From assembly GCA_019912885.1 (NCBI GenBank), contig JAIOHV010000144.1, positions 1 through 49,350 on the forward strand: a stretch of DNA of 49,350 bases, in the 5' to 3' direction. The first letter of the stretch is position 1. Each line of letters starts with the position of its first letter. Below the pieces are notes generated by a model. That model saw only the letters and a program-made list of their open reading frames with translations. It did no database searches and had not been told where the DNA came from. This stretch comes from a bacterium (GTDB taxonomy: Bacteria > Lernaellota > Lernaellaia > JACKCT01). The position numbers were made by a program, and so were the translations under genes. This document shows positions 30,185 to 48,953 of this stretch, piece after piece.

Positions 30185-31231
30185 ATGAAGCTTCCCTACC
30201 GATTCGTTCTGCAATCCGCGGTTGTCGGGCGTCGCGTGTTGTTTGTCGTGGGCTCGCTCGCGATCGGCACGGCCGCGGGCCTTGCGTTCGCCGAACTGCT
30301 CACACGCACTCTCGAGCTTGACCTCCTGGTGGCCGAGAAGCTGATGTTCTATCAGAATGCGGACCTCGCGGTGCACGTCGCCGATCCCGATCCGGATCTT
30401 TTCTATCGGCTCAAGCCGGGCTCGGCGATCCTCGAGAAATCGCGCCGCGTCACCATCAACCGGTTCGGCGCGCGAAGCCCGGAGTACGCGGCCGAAAAAC
30501 CCGGCGGCGTCTTTCGCATCGTCGTCGTCGGCGGATCGAACGTGTACGGCCTCGGCCTTTCCAACGAGGAGGCCTGGCCGGCGCGGCTCGAACAAGCCCT
30601 GAACGAAATGGAGCCGGGGCGCTACGAGGTGTGGAACTTCGGCACGCCGGGTTACGCGCCGGAACAGATGGCGATCGTCGGGCGGCAGGCACTCGAAAAG
30701 TACGATCCGGACCTTGTCCTTTTCGCTCCCTCGAATTTTTATTCCCGCCCGATGCTGCGCGGATCGCGCCTGGCCCCGTATCTTGCGCGCGATCCGGCGT
30801 TGCTGCCGAATCTGCTGAGTGTGATCTGGACGTTCGACGGAAACGACCCGCGGGTGCCGTCGTATCACGTGTCATTGGCGTCGAAGGTCGCGCTCTACCG
30901 GCTGGCGTTGCTGGCCTATTTGTACGAGCGAAAAGAAGGGTGGCTCGGCACGATCGACTCCCACGAGCGCGGACTGGCGGGGTTTGACGCGCTTATCGCC
31001 GCGGCCCGCGCGCGGGAGGTGCGCGTAGCGGTGTTTGTCGGGCCGGGGTCCGTCGTCGAAAACTATCACGACTACGCCGGGCGTGGCGGCGTGCCGACGC
31101 TCGTGCTATCGGCCGAGGACCGCGCGCGGGAGTATCGGGACATCCATCCGCCGGCTTACGTCATGCCGTGGTACGCGGAAAACCTCGCACGCTTTTTGAG
31201 GGACAATGGCCTCCTTGCCACCGCCGGATAA
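30185..31231 (+). CDS. SGNH/GDSL hydrolase, membrane-anchored
   Basis: 348 residues with an N-terminal membrane helix (VLFVVGSLAIGTAAGLAFAELL). Block I is IVVVGGSNVYGLGL with nucleophile Ser118. Block II is WNFGTPGYAPEQM, and the block III region is DLVLFAPSNFY. The C-terminal block is DIHPP (Asp319, His321), one residue closer than the usual DxxH. SGNH enzymes of this kind often add or remove O-acyl groups on glycans at the envelope. Its end overlaps the start of the next gene by 26 bases, which couples it to the acyltransferase-like proteins. Confidence 0.85.
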   Translation: MKLPYRFVLQSAVVGRRVLFVVGSLAIGTAAGLAFAELLTRTLELDLLVAEKLMFYQNADLAVHVADPDPDLFYRLKPGSAILEKSRRVTINRFGARSPEYAAEKPGGVFRIVVVGGSNVYGLGLSNEEAWPARLEQALNEMEPGRYEVWNFGTPGYAPEQMAIVGRQALEKYDPDLVLFAPSNFYSRPMLRGSRLAPYLARDPALLPNLLSVIWTFDGNDPRVPSYHVSLASKVALYRLALLAYLYERKEGWLGTIDSHERGLAGFDALIAAARAREVRVAVFVGPGSVVENYHDYAGRGGVPTLVLSAEDRAREYRDIHPPAYVMPWYAENLARFLRDNGLLATAG

Positions 31232-37211: not shown

Positions 37212-40200
37212 TTATCGCTCGTAAATCTGCGCCAGGGCGGCCTTGGCGCCGACGACGGCCTCGTGCGTCGCCGGGTATTTGGCGATGAGATCCTCGAGGA
37301 GTTTCACCGCCGCGGCCTGCTCGCCGTTTTCGTTCAACAGGCGCGCGGCCGAGGACATCGCCCACGCCGCCTGGTTGGTTTCCGGCCAGCGCGTGTAAAT
37401 CATCTCGTATTGCGCGAGCGCGTCGCGGATGCGGTGCTTTCGCCCATAGAGGCCCGCCAGCGTGATCGCCGCGTTCGATTTGGTATTCGCGTCCGCGGCG
37501 TCCATGGCGAGCGTGCGCTTGAGGACATCCTCGAGCGCCTCGTCGTTGCCGCGTTCCTGATAGAGCTGGGCGAGCTGATTGAGCGCGGAGATCGTCTGCG
37601 GATAGTCGGGCCACTTCTCGGCGACCATGCGATATCGATCGAGAGCGTCGTCGCCCCGGCCCCCCTCGTGAAGGTTGCGCGCGATGCCGAGGTGCGCGTC
37701 GATCAGGGAGGTCAGATTGTTCGGATACTCCTCGATGAGCGATTCGTAGACGGCGTTGGCGTCGTCCGTGCGACGCTGGTGCGAGAGGATTTGCGCCTTG
37801 GCATGCAATGCCCACGCGGTTTGCGGCTGGCCTTCGTATTCCTTGATGAGCGGATCGAGCTTGGCGATCGCCTCGTCGAAACGCCTTTCCTCGCGCAACT
37901 TGCCGACAAGCGCGAGACGCACGTTGATGACGCTGTTCTGGTCGCCGGGGAATCGGCTCTTGATCTCGCGGATGACGTTCTCGACCTCGCGGAACTCGCC
38001 GAGATTCACGAGCGCCTGTCCCAGCAATTGCAGCGCGCTGCCGGCCTCGGAGCGATCGCCGGCCTCCCGGGCGACCTCCTCGAAAACGCGGCGCGCGGTG
38101 CGCGAATCGCCGCCGGCCATCGCGGTTTCGCCGACACCGAGGCTGGCTTGCAGCTTCAGGCTCGGCTCGACCTTCGCGGCGCCGGCGATTTCCTCGAAAA
38201 TCTTGCGCGCCTCGGCGTACTCCTCGACCGCCATGAGCGAGCGCGCGATGGCGAGCCGGGCGCGCATCGCGGCCTCCGGATCCTGCGCCTTGTCGACGAT
38301 CTCGCGGTAGGCGGCGAGCGCCGCTTCGCGATTTCCGGCCTGGTTTTCCACCTCCGCCAGGCCCATGCGCGCCTGCTCCGTGAATTCGGGATGCGCCGGG
38401 AACGTCTCCATCATCCGCTTGTAAGCCTCGCGCGCGGCGTCGTATTCGCCGAAGCCCAGATGAATCTGCGCGATCGCCCCGAGCGACCAGCCCGCGTAGG
38501 GTGTGTTCGGAAACTCCTTGAGAATCTCCTGATACGCGGCGAGGGCCTCGCGGTTCTTGTTTCCGCTCCGCAAGAGATTCGCGAGATTCATCTTGCTGTC
38601 GGCGACGGATTGCGCGTTCTGGCCGAATCGCTCGCCGACCTCCTTGTAGATCGCCTGCGCCTTGTCGAACGCGCCCTTTTCGCCGGCGATCTGCGCCGTG
38701 CCCATCATCGCCCAATAAGCCTGCGGGCTTTCCGGCGCCTCGTCCACGACGGCCTGGAACATTTTCTCGGCCTCGCCGAGTTTCCGCTGTTCCTTGAGCG
38801 CCTCCGCGATCCCCATCCGCGCATCCAGGCGCGCGGCCTTGTTCGCGCCGTATTCATCGACGATCGCCTGATACGCACGAATGGCCTGGTCGTGCTCGCC
38901 GCGCTCCAGGCGCATCCTCGCGACGGCCGAGTCGGCCCATAGGCGCCGCGTTTCGTCGGGCGCCTCGGCCCGAACCCGGCGGTAGGTCGCCAGGGCGCGT
39001 TCGATCTTTCCCTGGCGGCGGTACACGTCGGCCATGCCGCCGAGCGCGTCGAGACGCACGGAATCGTTGCCCTCGAAGGCCTTGAGCATCCGTTCGTAGT
39101 CGGCCACGGCGTCGTCGAAGCGGCCCTGCTCCAGCCGGATTTGCGCCATGGCGCTCATGGCCTGGATACGCTCGCTCTCTTCCTGCGCGCTTTGGGCGAC
39201 CTGATCCATGAGCGCGAACGCCTCGTCCAGGCGTTTATCCGTGCGCAGCAGTTCGGCGCGGCCGAAACGCGCCTGCGCGACCACCGAAGGCACGCCCGCG
39301 AAGGATTCGACGATCTCGTTGAACTGCTCGTGCGCGACGTCCTTGCGGCCGAGCTGCGCCTGGATCTGCGCGACGGCGATCAGCGCGTTGCCACGCGTCT
39401 GGCGGTCAGGCGCCTCCTTGGCCGCCTCGGCGAAGAGACTGGCGGCGTCCTCGAACTGGTTGTTCTGCCGCAAGACCTGCGCCTGGCCGAACTTCGAATT
39501 CGCCGCGAGCCCGCGAGAGCCCGGCGAGACCGCCTCGATTTCCTCGTAAGCCTTTTGCGCCTCGGCGAACCGGCCAAGCTCGGTGCTGAGATTCGCGATC
39601 GACGAAAGCGCCTCCACGCGGACGCCTTCCTCGAATTTCTCGCCGGCATTGCGCCGCCAGACCTCGATCGCCTCGTCGTATCGGCCCTGCGTCCGGAGGA
39701 TGGCGCCCATGCCGCGGTTGGCCGCCGCCACCGCCTCGAGGTTGTCCGCGTGCTCGGCCAGGATCTCCTCGTAGGCCAGGCGAGCCTCGTCGAAGCGGCC
39801 CTCGCGCGCGCGCAGCGCGGCCAGTTCCGCCTTGGCGCGCAAGCGCACCGACGGGCGCTCGTCGCCCTTGAGGATCGCCTCGTACTCGCGCGCGGCCCGA
39901 TCCAGCCGGCCCGCGCCCAGGTACACCTGCGCCTTGCCGAAACGCGCGGTTTCGAACACCGCGGGATCGCCGGGAAATTCCGTCTCGAGTCGCTCGAAGG
40001 AACGCACCGCGTCGTCGATCCTGCCGACCTGCGCGTAGGTGTGTGCCATCGTCGTGAGCGCCTGTCCCAGGGCCGACGGCGTATCGACCTCCTTGATAAT
40101 CGACTCCAGGCGGCGCAGCGCCTCGTCCTTGCGCCCCTGCGTGCTCATCGCGGTCGCCACGGACAGGCGGGCCTGCTCGATCTGCGAGGGATGGGCCGAC

Positions 40201-43200
40201 GCGCTCTTTTCGAACTCGTCGACCATCTGCTCGGCGCGCGCGATATCGCCCGAGTCGGCGACCACGCGTACCAGCGCGGCGCGGGCCTGGCCGCGGCTTT
40301 CGGCGTCGGAAACCAGCTCGCTCGCCTTTTCGTATTCCTGTTCCGCCTCGGCGTAGTTGCGCTTGGCCTCGTAAACCGTGGCCAGTCCGATGTGCGCCCG
40401 GAAGCGGTCGCGCGCGTACATTTCGCCGGGAAACTCCTCGACAATCGTTCGGTAGAGCGCCTCGGCGTCGCCGTACTGCTTGCGGTCGACGTGAATGCCG
40501 GCGATGCCGTCGAGCGCCCATGCGCGGACCTGCTTGCCGAAGCCGCTTTCCGCCATGTCCTGATAATGTTTCAGGGCTTCGTCCCCGAGTCCGGCCGTGC
40601 GCAACGCGCTGGCGAACGTCAGTCGCGCGGTGACCGCCTCGTGCGAAGCTTCGGGCGCGTTTTCGATCAGGCGATCGTAGTATCGCCGCGCGCTTCCGAT
40701 ATCGCGCTTTTGCGCGTGGTGATTCATGAGCGCCAACAACGCGTGGCGGCTCCGCGCGGCGTCGCCCGATTGCGTCACCTGTTCGTACAACGCGATGCCC
40801 TCGTCTTCGTCGCCGCGCGCCAGCAGGCTTTGCGCGCGCGCGATCTGCGCGTCGAGAATCGCCCCGGTGTTGTTAGGGAATCGCGCGTTGATCTCGTCCT
40901 GCACCTGCTTGGCGCCGTCGAGATCGCCCGTCTCGGTCAACAGCCGCACAAGCGTGGAGAGAGCGGCCGCCGCCTGATTGGCGTTGTCCGTGTCCGCACC
41001 CGCGCGCAGCGCCTCCTTGGCGGCGTCGATATCGCCGGCGCGCCGATAATAATCGGCGAAGAGGACGTCGATCAGGCTCTCGAAGTTCGGCTCGTCGCGA
41101 AACGTCTCGCGGATGCGTTCAAGCGTCTGCAACTCTTTTTTGGGATCTTTCGCTTCCTCCCACAGGCGGCGCAGGGCACCGAACGCCTGGAACTTGTCAC
41201 CATTTTCGTGCGCGACGTCGATGGCTCGCTCGAACTGCGTGGCCGCCTCGTCGAAGCGCCCGGTTTCGAGCGCGATGTGTCCAAGTCCCACGAAGGCCTG
41301 CGACGCGGTGGCGGGATCGTTCTTGCCGAGTTCGGTCAGCTCGACAAAGATGGGTCGCGCTTCGTCGTAGCGGCGATGCTGCGCGAGCACATTGGCCAGT
41401 TGCACCGTGGCGCGCCGCCGTTGATCGGTTTCCACCGCGTCGTTGGCGACCGCGCGAAGGGCGTTGACGCCGTCGTTGACGCGATCCACGAGGATGAGCA
41501 CCTGAGCCTGTTCGATCTTGAGATCGTCCCGCTCGGCGGGGCGGTCGCGGAAGCGATCGATGAGGCGGTCGTAGAGTTCGAGCGCCATGCCGGGCCGGCC
41601 GGTGTTGGTGTAAAGCTGCGCCAGTCTTGATCCGACCCATCGGGCCTGCGAATCGCCGCCCAGGCGCTCGAGCATCGCCAGGAATCGCTCCTCGGCCTTG
41701 CCCGGATCGCCGATGACCGCCTCGACGTTTGCGATCTGAGATTCGGCCTGAACGAGGTTGTCGGTCTGATCGGGATAGGTTTCGCGCATCCGCGCGAGAA
41801 CTTCGCGCGCCTCGTCGAGCTTGCTCATCGTCACCAGGCCGTTGATGACGCCGGCGAACGCGCGCGACGCGGTGTCGGGTCGGTCGGCGTAGGCCTCCGC
41901 GATTTTCCGGTAACGGTCGACGGCTTCGCGCACGCGGCCGTTCTCGAGAAACAGGTTGGCGACGTCGAATTCCGCGCGCAGGATGATGTTCGGGTCCGCG
42001 GCGTACTTTTCGATGATCAGCCGATACTGCTCTTCCGCCTTTTCAAACTCGTTGATCCGGACATAGATGCGCGCGACGCGGTCGTGCGCGTCGGCCGCCT
42101 GGGGGAAATCCTTCCATTTCTCCGCGTACGCCTTGTATCGCTCGATCGCCTCCTCGAATTTACCTTCCTCCGCGTAGGTCGCGGCCATGCCGAATTCCGC
42201 GGTGAGCAGGGCATTGTCCTGATCCGGGAAGGTGTCGATGACCTCCTGAAAGAGCCGGCGCGCCTCGCTGACCTTTCTCTGGTCCAGCGCGGTCGACGCA
42301 ATGGCGTTCATCGCCTGCGCGACGCGCAAGGGATTGGCCGCGTACTTGCGGACGACAATCTGATAATAGCGTCGCGCCGTTTCGTAATCGCCGCGATCGC
42401 GCGCCTCCTGCCCGCGCTCATCGAGCTTGGCGAACGACCAGTTTTCCGGGTTGGCGAGCCAGGCTTGAACACCGAATCCGAGAGCAACGACGGCGGCAAG
42501 AAGGACAGCCTGCGCGGGACGGCTGCGCCGCACGAAGCGGAGGGCGCGGCGGATGACGAAGCGATCGACGCGAGCGCCGCGCTCCGCGAATGCGCCGATT
42601 TCCTCCTCCGTGTACCCCGAGACCGACTTGAAGCTCGCGCGGTCCAGCGTCGCCCCGGTCAGATTCACCTCGAGGTGGTCGCTGATGTTGAAACGCGCGC
42701 CGGTCAGGTCGGCGTCGGCGAACGAGGTGCGTTCCAGAAGCGCGTTCGAGTAGTCCGCTTCCGCGAGACGCGCGCCGGCAAATGTGCCGTCCCTGATCGT
42801 CGCGAGGGAGAAATCCGCGCGCTCGCCGGCAATCGCGGCGAAGTCGCAGGCCTCGAATATGGCGTTTTGATAGACACCGCCGGACAGGGTCGCGCCCGCG
42901 TAACGGCCGCCCTTTACCGTCATGTCCGCGGCATCGGCGTCCGTCAAGTCGGCTCCCGTGAAATCGGGGCCGACGAGCGCGGCATTGCTGAACGCGGCGC
43001 CGGGAATCTTTGCCTCGCGAAAGTTCGCGCCTTCGCCGGTGGCCTTGCGGAAACCCGCGCGATCGCCCTCGGCGCCCGAAAAATCGGCGCCGGTCAGGTC
43101 CGAGCCGTCGAACGACGCGCGGCCGAGTCTGGCGCCCGCCAATTTGGCGCCGTTAAGGTTCGCGCCGGAAACGTTCGCGCCGGAAAGATCCGCGCCGGAA

Positions 43201-43367
43201 AGATCCGCCCCGGCGAGGTTTGCGCCGGCCAGCCTGGCGCGCGCGAGATTCGCGCCGGCCAGTTTCGCGCCGGACAAATCCTGGTTTTTCAGGTTCGCGC
43301 GCGACAGATCCGCTCCGGCCAGATCACCGGAGGACGCTTTTTCAAGAATTTCGGAGGTTTCGGCCAT
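37212..43367 (-). CDS. Giant pentapeptide-repeat/membrane/TPR fusion protein
   Basis: 2051 residues in three parts. Residues about 12-255 are pentapeptide repeats of the A(D/N)LSG type (AGADLSGADLSGANVSGANL and similar), which form a right-handed beta-helix. Residues about 285-305 form one membrane helix (AQAVLLAAVVALGFGVQAWLA) preceded by Arg-rich flanks (RRALRFVRRSRP), so the pentapeptide part should be cytoplasmic and the rest periplasmic. Residues about 318-2050 are an unbroken array of roughly 45 TPR-like helix pairs (GDYETARRYYQIVVRKY, GKFEEAIERYKAYAEKW). A solenoid of that size could scaffold a large envelope complex. Start ATG 43367; a TTGACA (43405-43400) lies just upstream. No catalytic motif is seen. 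Neighbours are sugar-transfer genes, but no partner is proven. Confidence 0.9.
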   Translation of the reverse strand: MAETSEILEKASSGDLAGADLSRANLKNQDLSGAKLAGANLARARLAGANLAGADLSGADLSGANVSGANLNGAKLAGARLGRASFDGSDLTGADFSGAEGDRAGFRKATGEGANFREAKIPGAAFSNAALVGPDFTGADLTDADAADMTVKGGRYAGATLSGGVYQNAIFEACDFAAIAGERADFSLATIRDGTFAGARLAEADYSNALLERTSFADADLTGARFNISDHLEVNLTGATLDRASFKSVSGYTEEEIGAFAERGARVDRFVIRRALRFVRRSRPAQAVLLAAVVALGFGVQAWLANPENWSFAKLDERGQEARDRGDYETARRYYQIVVRKYAANPLRVAQAMNAIASTALDQRKVSEARRLFQEVIDTFPDQDNALLTAEFGMAATYAEEGKFEEAIERYKAYAEKWKDFPQAADAHDRVARIYVRINEFEKAEEQYRLIIEKYAADPNIILRAEFDVANLFLENGRVREAVDRYRKIAEAYADRPDTASRAFAGVINGLVTMSKLDEAREVLARMRETYPDQTDNLVQAESQIANVEAVIGDPGKAEERFLAMLERLGGDSQARWVGSRLAQLYTNTGRPGMALELYDRLIDRFRDRPAERDDLKIEQAQVLILVDRVNDGVNALRAVANDAVETDQRRRATVQLANVLAQHRRYDEARPIFVELTELGKNDPATASQAFVGLGHIALETGRFDEAATQFERAIDVAHENGDKFQAFGALRRLWEEAKDPKKELQTLERIRETFRDEPNFESLIDVLFADYYRRAGDIDAAKEALRAGADTDNANQAAAALSTLVRLLTETGDLDGAKQVQDEINARFPNNTGAILDAQIARAQSLLARGDEDEGIALYEQVTQSGDAARSRHALLALMNHHAQKRDIGSARRYYDRLIENAPEASHEAVTARLTFASALRTAGLGDEALKHYQDMAESGFGKQVRAWALDGIAGIHVDRKQYGDAEALYRTIVEEFPGEMYARDRFRAHIGLATVYEAKRNYAEAEQEYEKASELVSDAESRGQARAALVRVVADSGDIARAEQMVDEFEKSASAHPSQIEQARLSVATAMSTQGRKDEALRRLESIIKEVDTPSALGQALTTMAHTYAQVGRIDDAVRSFERLETEFPGDPAVFETARFGKAQVYLGAGRLDRAAREYEAILKGDERPSVRLRAKAELAALRAREGRFDEARLAYEEILAEHADNLEAVAAANRGMGAILRTQGRYDEAIEVWRRNAGEKFEEGVRVEALSSIANLSTELGRFAEAQKAYEEIEAVSPGSRGLAANSKFGQAQVLRQNNQFEDAASLFAEAAKEAPDRQTRGNALIAVAQIQAQLGRKDVAHEQFNEIVESFAGVPSVVAQARFGRAELLRTDKRLDEAFALMDQVAQSAQEESERIQAMSAMAQIRLEQGRFDDAVADYERMLKAFEGNDSVRLDALGGMADVYRRQGKIERALATYRRVRAEAPDETRRLWADSAVARMRLERGEHDQAIRAYQAIVDEYGANKAARLDARMGIAEALKEQRKLGEAEKMFQAVVDEAPESPQAYWAMMGTAQIAGEKGAFDKAQAIYKEVGERFGQNAQSVADSKMNLANLLRSGNKNREALAAYQEILKEFPNTPYAGWSLGAIAQIHLGFGEYDAAREAYKRMMETFPAHPEFTEQARMGLAEVENQAGNREAALAAYREIVDKAQDPEAAMRARLAIARSLMAVEEYAEARKIFEEIAGAAKVEPSLKLQASLGVGETAMAGGDSRTARRVFEEVAREAGDRSEAGSALQLLGQALVNLGEFREVENVIREIKSRFPGDQNSVINVRLALVGKLREERRFDEAIAKLDPLIKEYEGQPQTAWALHAKAQILSHQRRTDDANAVYESLIEEYPNNLTSLIDAHLGIARNLHEGGRGDDALDRYRMVAEKWPDYPQTISALNQLAQLYQERGNDEALEDVLKRTLAMDAADANTKSNAAITLAGLYGRKHRIRDALAQYEMIYTRWPETNQAAWAMSSAARLLNENGEQAAAVKLLEDLIAKYPATHEAVVGAKAALAQIYER

Positions 43368-43515: not shown

Positions 43516-44304
43516 TCAATAGGCCGGCGTCCATGCCCGGCGCGCGGCCGCGCGGCGCGCGGCCATCGACAGGCGATACATGCGCCGATCCACCGCGCGC
43601 TTTTGCGCCGGCGACAGACTTGCGGCGCGGCTTGCCTCGGCGACGACACGGCGCGTCGCGCGGTACATCGCCGGCAGATCGGCGCCGAGCTGCCCCCGAT
43701 GCAGGCGATACACGGCCAGCGCCTTCGGCACGAAAGTGGCCTTCGTGCCGACAATCAGACGCTGCCACAGATCGTAGTCTTCGGCCGGCGAAAATTCCGG
43801 GCGGAAACGAAGGTCGCCCAAGGCATCACGGCGCACGATCACCGTGGACGTCGGGATGAAGTTGTCGAGCAGGAGACGAAATTCGATGTCGCCGCATGCC
43901 GGCGGCTGCCGTGTAAAAACCGTCGGGCCGCGAAAGCTCGCGGGGACAATCCAGGCGTCCGAAAACACGAGACCGGCCGCCGGCGCGCGGTCGAGCAGAT
44001 CGAGTTGCGCGGCGAGCTTGCCCGGCTCCCACGTGTCGTCCGAATCGAGAAACGCGATATGGGGCGCGGCCGTCGCGTCGATGCCGGTGTTACGCGCGCC
44101 CGCCGGGCCGGCCGAGCGCGACGGGATGACCGCCACGCGCGGATCGCCCAGCGCGCGCACGGCGTCGGCGGTTCCGTCGGTGGAGCCGTCGTCGACGACC
44201 ACGATCTCGGAGGGCGGCGCGGTCTGGCCGAGGACGGACGCGATCGCCCGCACGACCATCTCGCGCCGGTTTTTCACCGGCACGACAACCGCCACCTCAT
44301 GCAC
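43516..44304 (-). CDS. Family 2 glycosyltransferase
   Basis: 262-residue GT-A-fold inverting transferase that uses a nucleotide sugar. The first block is VAVVVPVKNRREMVVRAI, then EIVVVDDGSTDGTADAV, the metal/nucleotide site FLDSDDTWEP, and the catalytic-base region EDYDLWQRL. No membrane segment, so it acts at the cytoplasmic face. The GTG start at 44304 overlaps the stop of the asparagine-synthetase gene by 8 bases; a later GTG at 44295 is possible. Third gene of a coupled GT2-asnB-GT2 operon. Confidence 0.9.
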   Translation of the reverse strand: MHEVAVVVPVKNRREMVVRAIASVLGQTAPPSEIVVVDDGSTDGTADAVRALGDPRVAVIPSRSAGPAGARNTGIDATAAPHIAFLDSDDTWEPGKLAAQLDLLDRAPAAGLVFSDAWIVPASFRGPTVFTRQPPACGDIEFRLLLDNFIPTSTVIVRRDALGDLRFRPEFSPAEDYDLWQRLIVGTKATFVPKALAVYRLHRGQLGADLPAMYRATRRVVAEASRAASLSPAQKRAVDRRMYRLSMAARRAAARRAWTPAY

Positions 44305-46024
44305 GAACGTAATCCGGAAAAAACTGGCGGAACCAGAGCTCGAGGCAAACGCGCGTGTAGCGCGAGCGGTCGAACTCGCCTCGGCCCGTGTTGTTGTCGG
44401 GTAACGGAATGCGCCGCGCGAGGCTCGCCTCGAGATCGGCCGCCCACGCATTCAGGGGGCCGTTCAGCCACTGATGAAACGGCACGACGAGCCCCATTTT
44501 GTCGCGCCGGTCGAGAATCTCGTCAGGCACGATGCCGCGCAAGGCAAGGCGCAGCACGCTCTTGGTGCGCAATCCGTCGATCTTCGCCGCCGGCGGCAGG
44601 CGGAAAGCGAACTCGACGACGCGGTGATCGAGGAACGGGCAGCGATTCTCGAGGCCGAACGCGGCGCACGCGCGATCGTTCATGGTCAGGAGCGACGGCA
44701 GGGACAGCCGCGCGTCGGCGTGCCCGATCTTGTCGATGAGCGCGTCGTGGCGCGAGAAAAAACGGCGCAGGCGGTTTTCGTATGGCGTGTCGTCGGCGGG
44801 CGCGGCGCGCCGCACGAGGCGGTGATAACGCGCCGCGTCGTCGGGCAGTCCGGCGCCTTTTTCGAAATACGCCGCGAGGCTTCGATAATTGGCAAGCTCC
44901 GGCGCGCCGGGCGCGTCGCCGCCGGTCATGAAGAGGTATCGAACGTAGCCGCCGAAGATTTCGTCGGCGCCCTGTCCGCCGAGGATCACCTTGATGCCGT
45001 CGGCGGACGCGCGCTCGGCGAGCATGAACTCGCTGATCGTCGAGGCGGTGGCGATCGGCTGATCGACGTGCCAGATCACGCGCGGCAGGCGCTTTTTGAA
45101 ATCGTTGACCGTCGGCGTGACGATCGTGTGGCGTGCGCCGATGCGCTCGGCGACGAGCCGCGCAAAGGGCAGCTCGTCGAACTTCGCCCCGAGCGGAAAA
45201 TGGCACGTGTAAACCGTCCCGGGCCTCGCGATGCACGCGATCGCCGCGGAGTCGATGCCGCCGGACAAAAACATGCCGAGCGGCACATCGCTCATCAGGC
45301 GAATGTTCACCGCGTCGATCAGAAGTTCGCGCAATTCCTCGGCCAGCCGCTCGACGGGTGCCTCCGACGGCGGCGAGGCGGGGATGTCCCAATACGGCTC
45401 GACCGACAGATCCTTGCCGTCGTAGATCAGTCGCCGGCCGGGAAGCAGCTCGCGGATCCCGCGAAAGAGCGTGCGTCCCTCGACCGGCGTGTCGTAAACC
45501 CAGAACTCCTCGTCGACATCGGGCGCGGACTCGAACGCGGGCAGGATCGCCTTGATCTCGGAGGCGAACACGAGCATCCCGTTCTCGAACGCGTAGTACA
45601 GCGGCTTTTCGCCCATGCGGTCGCGCGCGAGCAAAAGGCGTTCTCCGTCCCAGATCGCAAAGCCAAACATGCCGTTCAGGCGGCCGATGAGACCTTCGCC
45701 CCACTGCTCGTAGCCGTGGACGAGCACCTCCGTGTCGGTCTTCGTCCGGAAGACATGACCCGCGCGGACAAGCTCGTCGCGGAGCGCGCGGAAGTTGTAG
45801 ATTTCGCCGTTGTAAACCGCAACGACGCGGCCGTCCTCGCTGGTCATCGGCTGCCGGCCGGTCACCAGATCGATGATCTTCAACCGCCGAACGCCAAGGC
45901 TGACGGGGCCAAGGTTGCACGCGCCCTCCTCGTCCGGGCCGCGGTGCGTGATGAGCTCAATCATACGCGCCAGCGGGCGCGGCGCGTCGGGGCGGGAATC
46001 ATGTATGCCGACGATGCCGCACAT
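44297..46024 (-). CDS. asnB: Glutamine-hydrolysing asparagine synthetase
   Basis: Transfers amide nitrogen from glutamine to an aspartate-type carboxyl group, with ATP. 575 residues. The class II glutaminase domain begins MCGIVGIHD with nucleophile Cys2; THRGPDEEG and YNGEIYNF follow. The synthetase domain has the PPi loop FLSGGIDSAAIA and VILGGQGADEIFGGY. The ATG at 46024 shares one base with the TGA of the upstream gene (TGATG), and the GT2 gene downstream overlaps it by 8 bases. AsnB homologues inside glycosyltransferase operons often amidate sugar or peptide carboxylates of surface glycans, so general asparagine supply is only one of the possible roles. Confidence 0.95.
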   Translation of the reverse strand: MCGIVGIHDSRPDAPRPLARMIELITHRGPDEEGACNLGPVSLGVRRLKIIDLVTGRQPMTSEDGRVVAVYNGEIYNFRALRDELVRAGHVFRTKTDTEVLVHGYEQWGEGLIGRLNGMFGFAIWDGERLLLARDRMGEKPLYYAFENGMLVFASEIKAILPAFESAPDVDEEFWVYDTPVEGRTLFRGIRELLPGRRLIYDGKDLSVEPYWDIPASPPSEAPVERLAEELRELLIDAVNIRLMSDVPLGMFLSGGIDSAAIACIARPGTVYTCHFPLGAKFDELPFARLVAERIGARHTIVTPTVNDFKKRLPRVIWHVDQPIATASTISEFMLAERASADGIKVILGGQGADEIFGGYVRYLFMTGGDAPGAPELANYRSLAAYFEKGAGLPDDAARYHRLVRRAAPADDTPYENRLRRFFSRHDALIDKIGHADARLSLPSLLTMNDRACAAFGLENRCPFLDHRVVEFAFRLPPAAKIDGLRTKSVLRLALRGIVPDEILDRRDKMGLVVPFHQWLNGPLNAWAADLEASLARRIPLPDNNTGRGEFDRSRYTRVCLELWFRQFFPDYVRA

Positions 46025-46791
46025 CAGGCGTCCCTCACCGCCGCCGCGCGCCGGCGAAACACGCCGAACTCCATCACCGCGCGCGGCAGGTCCGCGAGCG
46101 CGCGCATCGAAAAGCGCAACGGATCGTGGATGAAGCTTTCGCCCGCGGCGCGCTCGTCGAACACGATCGGCACCTGGGCGATGCGCAGGCCGTGCGCGAT
46201 GGCCGCGATGCCGATGAAATGCTGGTAGTAGCGGAAGGGGCGGCGGTAGTCGAGAACGCGGGAGAGCGCGTCGCGCGAGTAAAGCACGAAGCCGCTTTTG
46301 TTGTCGCGCAGATGCCCCGCGCCGAACATCGCGCTCAAAAGGCCCGATAGCCCCGCCGTGAGCACCTTGCGCAGCAGGCCGCGGCGCACCTGCGTTTGCC
46401 GCCATCCCTGCACGAACTCGGCACCGGTTTCGTCCATCGCCGCCACCAGGCGCGGAATGTCCTCGGGGCGGTATTGCAGATCGGAGTCGATTGTCACGAC
46501 GCGCCGCCCGCGGCATGCCGCAAGGCCGGTGCGCCAGCTTTCGGGGATGCCGCGATTGACGCGGTGCCGCGCGGGGACGACGAAGGGGAAATCCCTCGCG
46601 GCCCGCTCGATCTCCTCGAACGTCGCGTCGCGGCTGCCGTCGTCGACGATGACAAGCTCGAACCCGCCGGGGTGCGCCGCGAGCGCCGCGCCGACGCGCT
46701 CGGCAAGCGGCCGGATGTTCGGCGCCTCGTTCAGGCACGGGGCGATGACGGAAAGATCGACGTTGGCGGATTCCAAGCGCACCTCGAACAT
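46024..46791 (-). CDS. Dolichol-phosphate-mannose-synthase-like glycosyltransferase (GT2)
   Basis: 255 residues. SVIAPCLNEAPNIRPLAERV opens the domain, followed by FELVIVDDGSRDAT, then VVTIDSDLQYRPEDIPRLV with the DxD site. This matches enzymes that charge polyprenyl phosphate with a sugar (DPM1, ArnC, GtrB). Unlike GtrB there are no C-terminal membrane helices, as in DPM1 of the soluble class. Such a lipid-linked sugar is the donor that GT-C transferases need, and two GT-C genes lie in this window. It is the first gene of the operon and its stop overlaps asnB by one base. Confidence 0.88.
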   Translation of the reverse strand: MFEVRLESANVDLSVIAPCLNEAPNIRPLAERVGAALAAHPGGFELVIVDDGSRDATFEEIERAARDFPFVVPARHRVNRGIPESWRTGLAACRGRRVVTIDSDLQYRPEDIPRLVAAMDETGAEFVQGWRQTQVRRGLLRKVLTAGLSGLLSAMFGAGHLRDNKSGFVLYSRDALSRVLDYRRPFRYYQHFIGIAAIAHGLRIAQVPIVFDERAAGESFIHDPLRFSMRALADLPRAVMEFGVFRRRAAAVRDA

Positions 46792-47099
46792 TCGCGCGGC
46801 TCACGAAGGCCATGCGCCGGCGCGCGACGGATGAACCGAATTGTTTATCAACAACGGGCGGCGGGAGCAACGCGGGCCGGGTTACACGCGCGTCGGGATC
46901 GCGCTTCAGAACGTCTCGATCTCTTCCGGACGCACGCCAAGGCGTTTGGCCAATAGCGTGAGTGTGCGCGTGGCGCATCGCTCGCGGCGTTTCCGGCCCG
47001 GCGGTCCCGGCGGCGCCTTGACGATCCCCGCGCCTGTCGCGTCTCATAACCTGCCGCGCGGGTTCCGGGTCCAATCGGCCGCGCCCAAAGGAGAGCCGG
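46792..47099. other. Divergent intergenic region of 308 bases
   Basis: Separates the GT2-asnB operon (minus) from the 617-residue protein (plus) and should hold both promoters. It contains a DnaA-box-like TTATCAACA at 46845-46853, one mismatch from TTATCCACA and too isolated to suggest an origin. A 45-codon minus-strand frame (46906-47040, ending LAKRLGVRPEEIETF) has protein-like composition but no start codon. Confidence 0.5.
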
Positions 47100-48953
47100 G
47101 TGATTCGAAACGTCATCGTCATTCTCATCGGCGCCGCGATCGCCGCGGCCGGCGCGTGGGTCGCCTTCGCGCCGATCGACGTGGCCGACGTCATGCCCGC
47201 GAACACGGGCATGATCGTCCAGTTGCCCGACCTCGCCCGCACGGCGGAGATGCTGATCGCGTCCGACTCGTTTCGCGTGCTGACCGAACTTGGCATCGGC
47301 GGGCAGCAGCTCGCGCTCGGCGTCGGCATCCTGGACGCGGTTCGCGCCAAGCCGTTCGCGTGGGACGCGATCCGCTTTTTCCAGCCCGTCGTGTCCGTCA
47401 TGACGCCCGCGGACGTCGCGAGTTGGACGGACCCCGACGCCGTGCCGCGCCTTTTCGTCATCGATCTCGGCCGCCCGATCGTGTTCCTGTCGATGCTCGG
47501 GCTCGACATCATCTCCGCGCGCGCCGACAAGACGGCCGAGCACCTCGGACACCCCATCTACGAGTCGGATAAGCTGCGCCTCGCGCGCGTTCGCAACCTC
47601 ATCGTTATTGGCGGAAGCAGCGAGGTGAAAGATGCCATTTCCGCCTTCAAGGGGCTGCTGCCTTCCGCCGCGGTTGAGCACGGCGATCGCCTCGCGGCCG
47701 CGCGCGGCCTTTTGTCGGGCCCCGCGGACGTGCGTGCGTTGGTACTGACGCCGACGGCGATCATTTCCGGTGAATCGGGTAGCGCGACCCAGAAGTTTTT
47801 CGCGGCCGAATCCGATTTCGCCGGAGGCGCGTTGCAGCTTCGTTTGGAGGGCGACGCCATTCGCGGCGAGGCGATCCTGAAAGCGAAACCGGGAAAGGCT
47901 GTCGTCAGGCAATTCGCCGCGAAGTCAACCGACGACCCCTGGGCGCTGCGGCGTTTTTTGAACGACGATCGCGCCTACACGGCGGGCATCCGGTCAGGCG
48001 AGCTGGGCGATCTGGCCGACGCCTTCCTCACATTGCTCGTTCCGACGCAGGCGATGGGCGACAACAAGCTGCGCGAGAAGCTTAGCGCGCTCCTTGTGCG
48101 CGAGGTGCTTGCCGGCGTCGGGCCGGAGGTGATTTTTTCGCGCGACAAGGAGGGGGAATGGTTTGTCGTCGCGCAGGTGAAGGACGAGACGATCTTCAGA
48201 AAGACGGTGGAAAACCTGCGCAATCCGCCACTGCATTCCTCGCAGAAAAAATATCTCGAGGAGGCCTTCGGCGCCGCCGAAAGCCTGCGCGAGGCCCTTC
48301 GCACGCAGAAACATTTCAGCGTTGCGAACGCGAATCGCTACATCGGCACGCTGCCGGAGGCCGAGCAGGAGGCGGCGCGCCCGCGACTTGAGGAGGCGCT
48401 CGGCGATCTTGCCGGCGTTCTGGCCGATGGCGGCCCCGTGCGCATGATGCTCTACGACAAGCCGTACTTCCTGGACCTGCACGCGGGACTGCTGCTCATG
48501 TCCACGACGCCGTCGGGCGTCGAGATTCTGCGCGCGACGCCGCCGGAACCGCCGCGATCGCGCATCGAAATTTTCCTTGACGGCGGACCGCGCGGCGGCG
48601 CGTTTTTCGCGCTGAATGTGACGGACTACGTGCACCGGGCGCTGCCGGGCTTGCAATACGGCCGCGACCTCGCGCGCATCTTCCGCCGGCCGTGGCTTGC
48701 CGTCGCGGATATTCACGACGAAACCTCGCGCCTTCGCGTCACCGGCGGGCTCGACGCCTATCTTGGGCTTGCGGATTTCAAGCCGCGCGGATTCACATTC
48801 TGGCTCGCGCTGTTCCACATTGCGCGATGGCTGCTTGCCGCGCTCGTGCTGTATTGCGCGTTTGCCGCGACGCGCCGCGTCGTGCGGATCGCGCGCGGGC
48901 AGGTGCCGTCGCCGAAAAAGGAAAAGGCGCCAAAACGCAAGCGGACAAAGTAG
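47100..48953 (+). CDS. Unknown membrane-anchored protein, DUF3352-like
   Basis: 617 residues. An N-terminal helix (VIVILIGAAIAAAGAWVAFAP) and a C-terminal helix (WLLAALVLYCAFAATRRVV) bracket a large region with no obvious enzymatic motif, ending in a basic cytoplasmic tail (PSPKKEKAPKRKRTK). The layout, with long alpha/beta segments such as PANTGMIVQLPDLARTAEML, recalls DUF3352 proteins, which are uncharacterised; this is weak resemblance. The GTG at 47100 is supported by AAAGGAG a few bases upstream. Most of the chain should lie in the periplasm. Confidence 0.8.
   Translation: MIRNVIVILIGAAIAAAGAWVAFAPIDVADVMPANTGMIVQLPDLARTAEMLIASDSFRVLTELGIGGQQLALGVGILDAVRAKPFAWDAIRFFQPVVSVMTPADVASWTDPDAVPRLFVIDLGRPIVFLSMLGLDIISARADKTAEHLGHPIYESDKLRLARVRNLIVIGGSSEVKDAISAFKGLLPSAAVEHGDRLAAARGLLSGPADVRALVLTPTAIISGESGSATQKFFAAESDFAGGALQLRLEGDAIRGEAILKAKPGKAVVRQFAAKSTDDPWALRRFLNDDRAYTAGIRSGELGDLADAFLTLLVPTQAMGDNKLREKLSALLVREVLAGVGPEVIFSRDKEGEWFVVAQVKDETIFRKTVENLRNPPLHSSQKKYLEEAFGAAESLREALRTQKHFSVANANRYIGTLPEAEQEAARPRLEEALGDLAGVLADGGPVRMMLYDKPYFLDLHAGLLLMSTTPSGVEILRATPPEPPRSRIEIFLDGGPRGGAFFALNVTDYVHRALPGLQYGRDLARIFRRPWLAVADIHDETSRLRVTGGLDAYLGLADFKPRGFTFWLALFHIARWLLAALVLYCAFAATRRVVRIARGQVPSPKKEKAPKRKRTK

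Follow-up and report, generated by a model that had tools for sequence, protein, structure and literature searches.

A giant fusion of pentapeptide repeats, a membrane helix and 46 TPRs, conserved in Candidatus Lernaellota, as a possible fixed-length periplasmic scaffold

Introduction

Whether a reading frame that joins a pentapeptide-repeat domain, a membrane helix and a very long array of TPRs encodes one genuine protein, and what task such a protein would perform in the cell envelope, are the questions raised by a stretch of 49,350 bp of DNA (hereafter the window) assigned by class membership to FEN-1099 of GTDB, the name given there to Candidatus Lernaellota (PMC13248872, PMC11382960). Here the architecture, conservation, distribution and gene context of this protein (the giant) are described, together with a paralogue, and a candidate function is weighed against its alternatives.

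Results

The reading frame and its orthologues

The giant gene is located at 37212..43367 on the minus strand, and encodes 2051 aa from an ATG start. A preliminary description had placed the frame correctly but left out the strand; the plus-strand reading of 37212-43367 is interrupted by stops. Orthologues were identified by whole-genome search in each of the remaining six genomes of the class (G001 to G006; the genome of the window is G000), four intact and two broken. Single frames were found in G001 (2051 aa), G003 (2059 aa), G004 (2091 aa) and G005 (2028 aa), while the orthologue of G002 carries frameshifts and that of G006 is split between contig ends. In the G005 orthologue (L029:7528-13614), the pentapeptide domain is shorter by about 70 residues and the membrane-helix region has diverged, but the length of the TPR part is kept. 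Since unbroken orthologous frames of similar length are present in four other genomes, a chance or mis-assembled fusion is excluded, and so is a separate gene for the pentapeptide part, as had been considered at the outset. A scan for promoters and terminators around the gene gave nothing useful.

The pentapeptide domain and the membrane helix

Based on the criterion of PF00805 that tandem A(D/N)LXX repeats form a right-handed quadrilateral beta-helix, such a helix was assigned by Pfam and AlphaFold2 to residues ~15-250 (42618..43325, minus strand). Pentapeptide families matched at residues ~14-240, with 111.5 bits for PF00805 against a cut-off of 20.2, and the central residue is hydrophobic in 42 of the 47 pentapeptides. 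The AlphaFold2 model contains a beta-helix with a period of five residues, one strand per five residues, at residues ~19-249. Alignment and conservation then define a juxtamembrane motif, KSVxGYxEExxxxxERGA[KR]VDxFLxRR..., at residues 246-284 (42516..42632, minus strand), which includes a basic helix, lies on the basic side of the membrane and is common to the giant and its paralogue; the basic linker at 270-287 was modelled with low confidence. A single transmembrane helix follows at residues ~283-304 (42456..42521, minus strand; hydropathy and AlphaFold2), and in the hydropathy plot the segment of residues 287-305 is the lone hydrophobic one of the giant.

The TPR array

All the rest of the protein is covered by TPR families of Pfam (266.6 bits for PF13428). 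The array was first described as about 45 TPRs; the long array holds, but the count was one short, because 46 TPRs are placed at residues 312-2034 (37266..42434, minus strand) both by a repeat profile trained on five orthologues and by the model. The AlphaFold2 model includes, from residue 312 on, 93 helices as counted from the element lists, that is, 46 hairpins and a capping helix. It was run as two overlapping pieces with 7 and 6 sequences (the window protein and its relatives), and the mean pLDDT was 87.3 and 88.5, respectively; the pTM of 0.51 and 0.63 indicates that the global arrangement is less certain. Repeats above 20 bits numbered 44 in the real sequence and 0-1 in shuffled sequence. 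TPRs are defined as tandem helical hairpins of ~34 residues with conserved small residues at 8 and 20, G15 and P32; the spacing in the giant alternates between 37 and 38 residues instead of 34, making about 23 units of 75 residues. The TPR side is acidic (net charge -29 to -56 in the five full-length proteins), and in the model it ends in a TPR cap helix, HEAVVGAKAALAQIYER, at residues 2035-2051 (37215..37265, minus strand; defined by conservation), without a C-terminal beta-barrel.

The plan of pentapeptides, membrane helix and TPRs thus agrees with Pfam, hydropathy and AlphaFold2 alike. The giant is a real and conserved protein composed of known domains, and the fusion is undescribed as one family in the libraries searched: the domain-architecture search yielded no single family model, and no model spanning the whole fusion, in Pfam or NCBIfam. 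No description of the architecture was found in the open-access literature, which is not proof of its absence.

Restriction to one class

A profile of the junction (the last pentapeptides, the membrane helix and the first TPRs) gave full-length matches only in the seven genomes of the class, at 13 loci with E <= 1e-94, among the matches listed. Among those listed for 379 further genomes, either the pentapeptide part alone or the TPR part alone was matched, and none was full-span among those listed for a pentapeptide-rich phylum, of which 117 genomes were covered, a few of them shared with the first sample. Weak full-span matches in these ~490 genomes outside the class are unlikely. Long pentapeptide frames from outside the class were examined by eye as candidates for the same fusion and rejected; their partners (an NTPase-like part, a helicase-like part, an N-terminal part without family and short transmembrane parts) include no recognisable TPR array. 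Two long proteins of other lineages (L053:729-3725 and L054:2213-5128) share a similar N-terminal part that is followed by C-terminal pentapeptide repeats.

A shorter paralogue

Each of the seven genomes encodes a second protein of this plan, 967-1288 aa in length, with pentapeptides, the same juxtamembrane motif and membrane helix, and ~18 TPRs (L031:4359-7358, L032:7023-10889, L033:6661-9630, L034:7660-10647, L035:7482-10385, L036:1776-4679 and L037:4834-7764). The paralogue of G001 (L032) has gained ~294 residues, equivalent to ~8 extra TPRs, indicating that such arrays can grow; unlike this paralogue, the giant array shows no such growth in the seven genomes. Indels in the paralogue amount to 0.4-0.7 per 100 among close relatives and 1.6-3.0 between families.

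Predicted membrane topology

For all 14 family members tabulated, the 30 residues on the N side of the membrane helix carry a net charge of +3 to +10, and the 30 on the C side one of -7 to +2. In addition, the paralogue carries a C...CC...CW cysteine pattern at its C-terminus in six of the seven copies, L034 being the exception, and this pattern fits an oxidising compartment. The charge asymmetry, together with the location of these cysteines on the TPR side of the paralogue, predicts a cytoplasmic beta-helix and a periplasmic TPR rod. The location of the two solenoids on opposite sides of the membrane, as proposed in the preliminary description, is thereby supported as a prediction. Omp85 and Wza-type export proteins were both detected in 7/7 genomes, so that an outer membrane, a periplasm and polysaccharide export are to be expected in this class.

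Fixed length and conserved ends

The TPR part of the five full-length proteins is 1746, 1747, 1755, 1747 and 1742 aa long, a spread of 13 residues in ~1750 at 20-30% identity. The repeat register gave 46 repeats in the window protein and, when weak repeats were filled by spacing, 46 in G001, G003 and G004 and 44 in G005, of which the first repeats are too divergent for placement. Odd spacings (40; 36-38-36) are located at equal index from the C-end in nearly all orthologues, and a repeat is matched best by its same-index counterpart in 5-20 of 44-46 cases against ~1 expected by chance, indicating that the array has remained colinear though diverged. Gap events between the window protein and those of G001, G003, G004 and G006 number 0.08-0.64 per 100 aligned residues at 30-33% identity, compared with 1.2-5.5 for neighbouring non-TPR proteins at 30-42% identity; across the 1197 residues that align between the G006 fragment and the window protein (31% identity), the only gap is a single residue long. 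Since indels are few also in the paralogue among close relatives, the low rate in the giant is in part attributable to the fold. TPR folds tolerate few internal indels, and human protein repeats commonly conserve their number of units (PMC3995336); the frozen length alone is therefore no proof of a ruler.

Mean pairwise identity is 0.36 in the pentapeptide part, 0.41 in the juxtamembrane region, ~0.25 in the array, 0.40 in TPR 46 and 0.59 in the C-cap, which ranks first among the 1730 windows of 17 residues on the TPR side. Within repeats the conserved positions (3, 8, 15, 20 and 24) are structural and not those of the groove, the latter as we assume them from TPRs in general. A spacer that joins two docking points would account for this pattern better than would a groove binding a single conserved ligand, although the conservation of the C-cap helix could also be for stability.

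Gene neighbourhood

On the same strand as the giant, and 148 bp upstream of it, lies a GT2 glycosyltransferase gene (43516..44304), preceded by a gene for an AsnB-type amidotransferase with N-terminal MCGI (44297..46024) and by a second GT2 gene, the first of this GT2-AsnB-GT2 set (46024..46791); the AsnB gene overlaps the GT2 genes on both sides. The 1086-aa open frame at 44297-47557 is too long for AsnB, and the conserved MCGI start is at 46024. The same set adjoins the giant in G001 and G003; the downstream GT2 of G002 was called only as a 184-aa fragment. AsnB of G004 is encoded ~6 kb from the giant on the opposite strand, and in G005 and G006 it is on other contigs, unlinked. Altogether, AsnB is linked to the giant in 5/7 genomes; the full set stands beside it in two families, and AsnB lies within ~6 kb in a third. 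Synteny between G001 and G002 reaches as far as genes of apparently housekeeping function, and thus part of the linkage reflects shared ancestry.

Among the genes converging on the giant from the plus strand are those of two acyltransferase-like proteins and, at a greater distance, that of an SGNH-like protein. SGNH/GDSL-type proteins are abundant throughout the class (10-32 matches per genome with one query; for instance, window 30185-31231), so their nearness to the giant means little, and the downstream gene was dropped as a specific partner.

Discussion

The giant may well be a fixed-length periplasmic scaffold or tether, anchored in the inner membrane and specific to Lernaellota, a reading to which we give an even chance. 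The N-terminal beta-helix would provide a rigid docking face in the cytoplasm, and the chain would cross the inner membrane once and continue as an unbroken 46-TPR superhelix in the periplasm. At its far end the conserved cap would probably dock a partner, which may lie at the outer membrane, and the middle of the array would serve mainly as a spacer. Most likely, the giant would keep proteins of envelope assembly, those for surface glycans or others, together across the periplasm. We infer the periplasmic location of the TPR side and its spacer role; a role in surface glycans is suggested by the neighbouring genes.

Both functions had been raised in the preliminary description. The trans-envelope scaffold gains from the fixed length and the conserved ends, and its inner-membrane end is supported by hydropathy, charge and AlphaFold2, but there is no sign that the C-end reaches or attaches to the outer membrane, and the terminal barrel is absent. 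The surface-glycan platform gains from the linkage of AsnB, but neighbouring genes are its sole basis and the linkage is missing in G005 and G006. A stronger version, a phylum-specific molecular ruler in which the 46-TPR rod spans or sets the periplasm, coupled to the cytoplasm via the beta-helix, with the ~18-TPR paralogue as a second span, is put forward tentatively. The rod would presumably be roughly 35-40 nm long, if coiled like known TPR superhelices.

All seven genomes examined of this uncultured phylum carry the fusion, which marks out a family of two proteins confined to the lineage. Should the array be a tether of fixed length, it would allow selection on protein length to be tested cleanly, the repeat number being constant at 20-30% identity. 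The fusion also suggests how events in the cytoplasm might be coupled to the envelope by a pentapeptide domain.

Each part of the giant has known relatives. HetL, Qnr and MfpA share the beta-helix fold of its N-terminus, as judged from sequence matches and Foldseek (HetL 3du1, TM-score 0.62 by target), but are soluble and single-domain, whereas the pentapeptide domain of the giant is fused to a membrane helix and TPRs. The best NCBIfam match to its repeats is TIGR02795 of CpoB/YbgF (350 bits, 10 stretches), with which the giant has no more than the repeat type in common. CpoB is a small soluble periplasmic protein, and its equivalog NF008068 gave 117 bits against a cut-off of 383 bits; the PEP-CTERM TPR lipoprotein PrsT (TIGR02917) likewise stayed below the cut-off, with 226.8 against 312.2 bits. 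An assignment to defence systems was dropped, as the match was to generic TPRs only. PgaA, AlgK, PelB and BcsC have fewer TPR repeats than the giant; they form, as is predicted for it, a periplasmic TPR superhelix, and glycan genes are likewise close by. They are associated with the outer membrane (PMC9384988), whereas the giant would be anchored in the inner membrane and has a pentapeptide domain, 46 TPRs and no barrel, the C-terminal element of the EPS TPR-porins PgaA, BcsC and PelB. PflA and PflB resemble the giant in their periplasmic TPR arrays, which serve as structural spokes, and are among its Foldseek matches; PflA, with 16 TPRs, is devoid of a pentapeptide domain (PMC12222027). A motor scaffold of this kind would go with a flagellum, whereas the giant is present in G003, which gave no FlgI or FliG match.

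Among these relatives, PgaA, AlgK and PelB suggest an exopolysaccharide-processing scaffold, the TPR groove of which would bind the exiting glycan and its modifying enzymes, as the TPRs of PgaA bind polymer and enzyme (PMC9384988). The adjacent GT2, AsnB, acyltransferase-like and SGNH-like genes, the Wza-type proteins of all seven genomes and the acidic TPR side would agree with this role, but no synthase or porin was recognised beside the giant, the barrel is absent and the anchor is in the inner, not the outer, membrane, the gene linkage is lost in two genomes, and the conserved repeat positions are structural rather than in the groove; we consider this role possible but doubtful. Less probable still is a multivalent hub for many unrelated clients, with no critical length or end and a low indel rate as an effect of the fold. 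TPRs bind proteins in general, unit-number conservation is common (PMC3995336) and indels are few also between paralogues of close relatives; against the hub stand the growth of the G001 paralogue by ~8 TPRs, never seen in the giant array, and the end cap as its best-conserved stretch.

A flagellar or pilus motor scaffold like the Campylobacter TPR proteins PflA and PflB is very improbable. Chains of the Campylobacter periplasmic scaffold are among the Foldseek matches, but as generic TPR matches with low TM-scores; a flagellin-like gene stands at the start of the window and PilB/PilC-like genes, recognised by resemblance of their start sequences only, precede one paralogue. The flagellar role is disfavoured because G003, 98% complete, gave no FlgI or FliG match yet encodes the full 2059-aa giant. 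As to flagella in the class itself, both proteins were matched in the other six genomes, suggesting that the flagellum was lost in the branch of G003 (L026).
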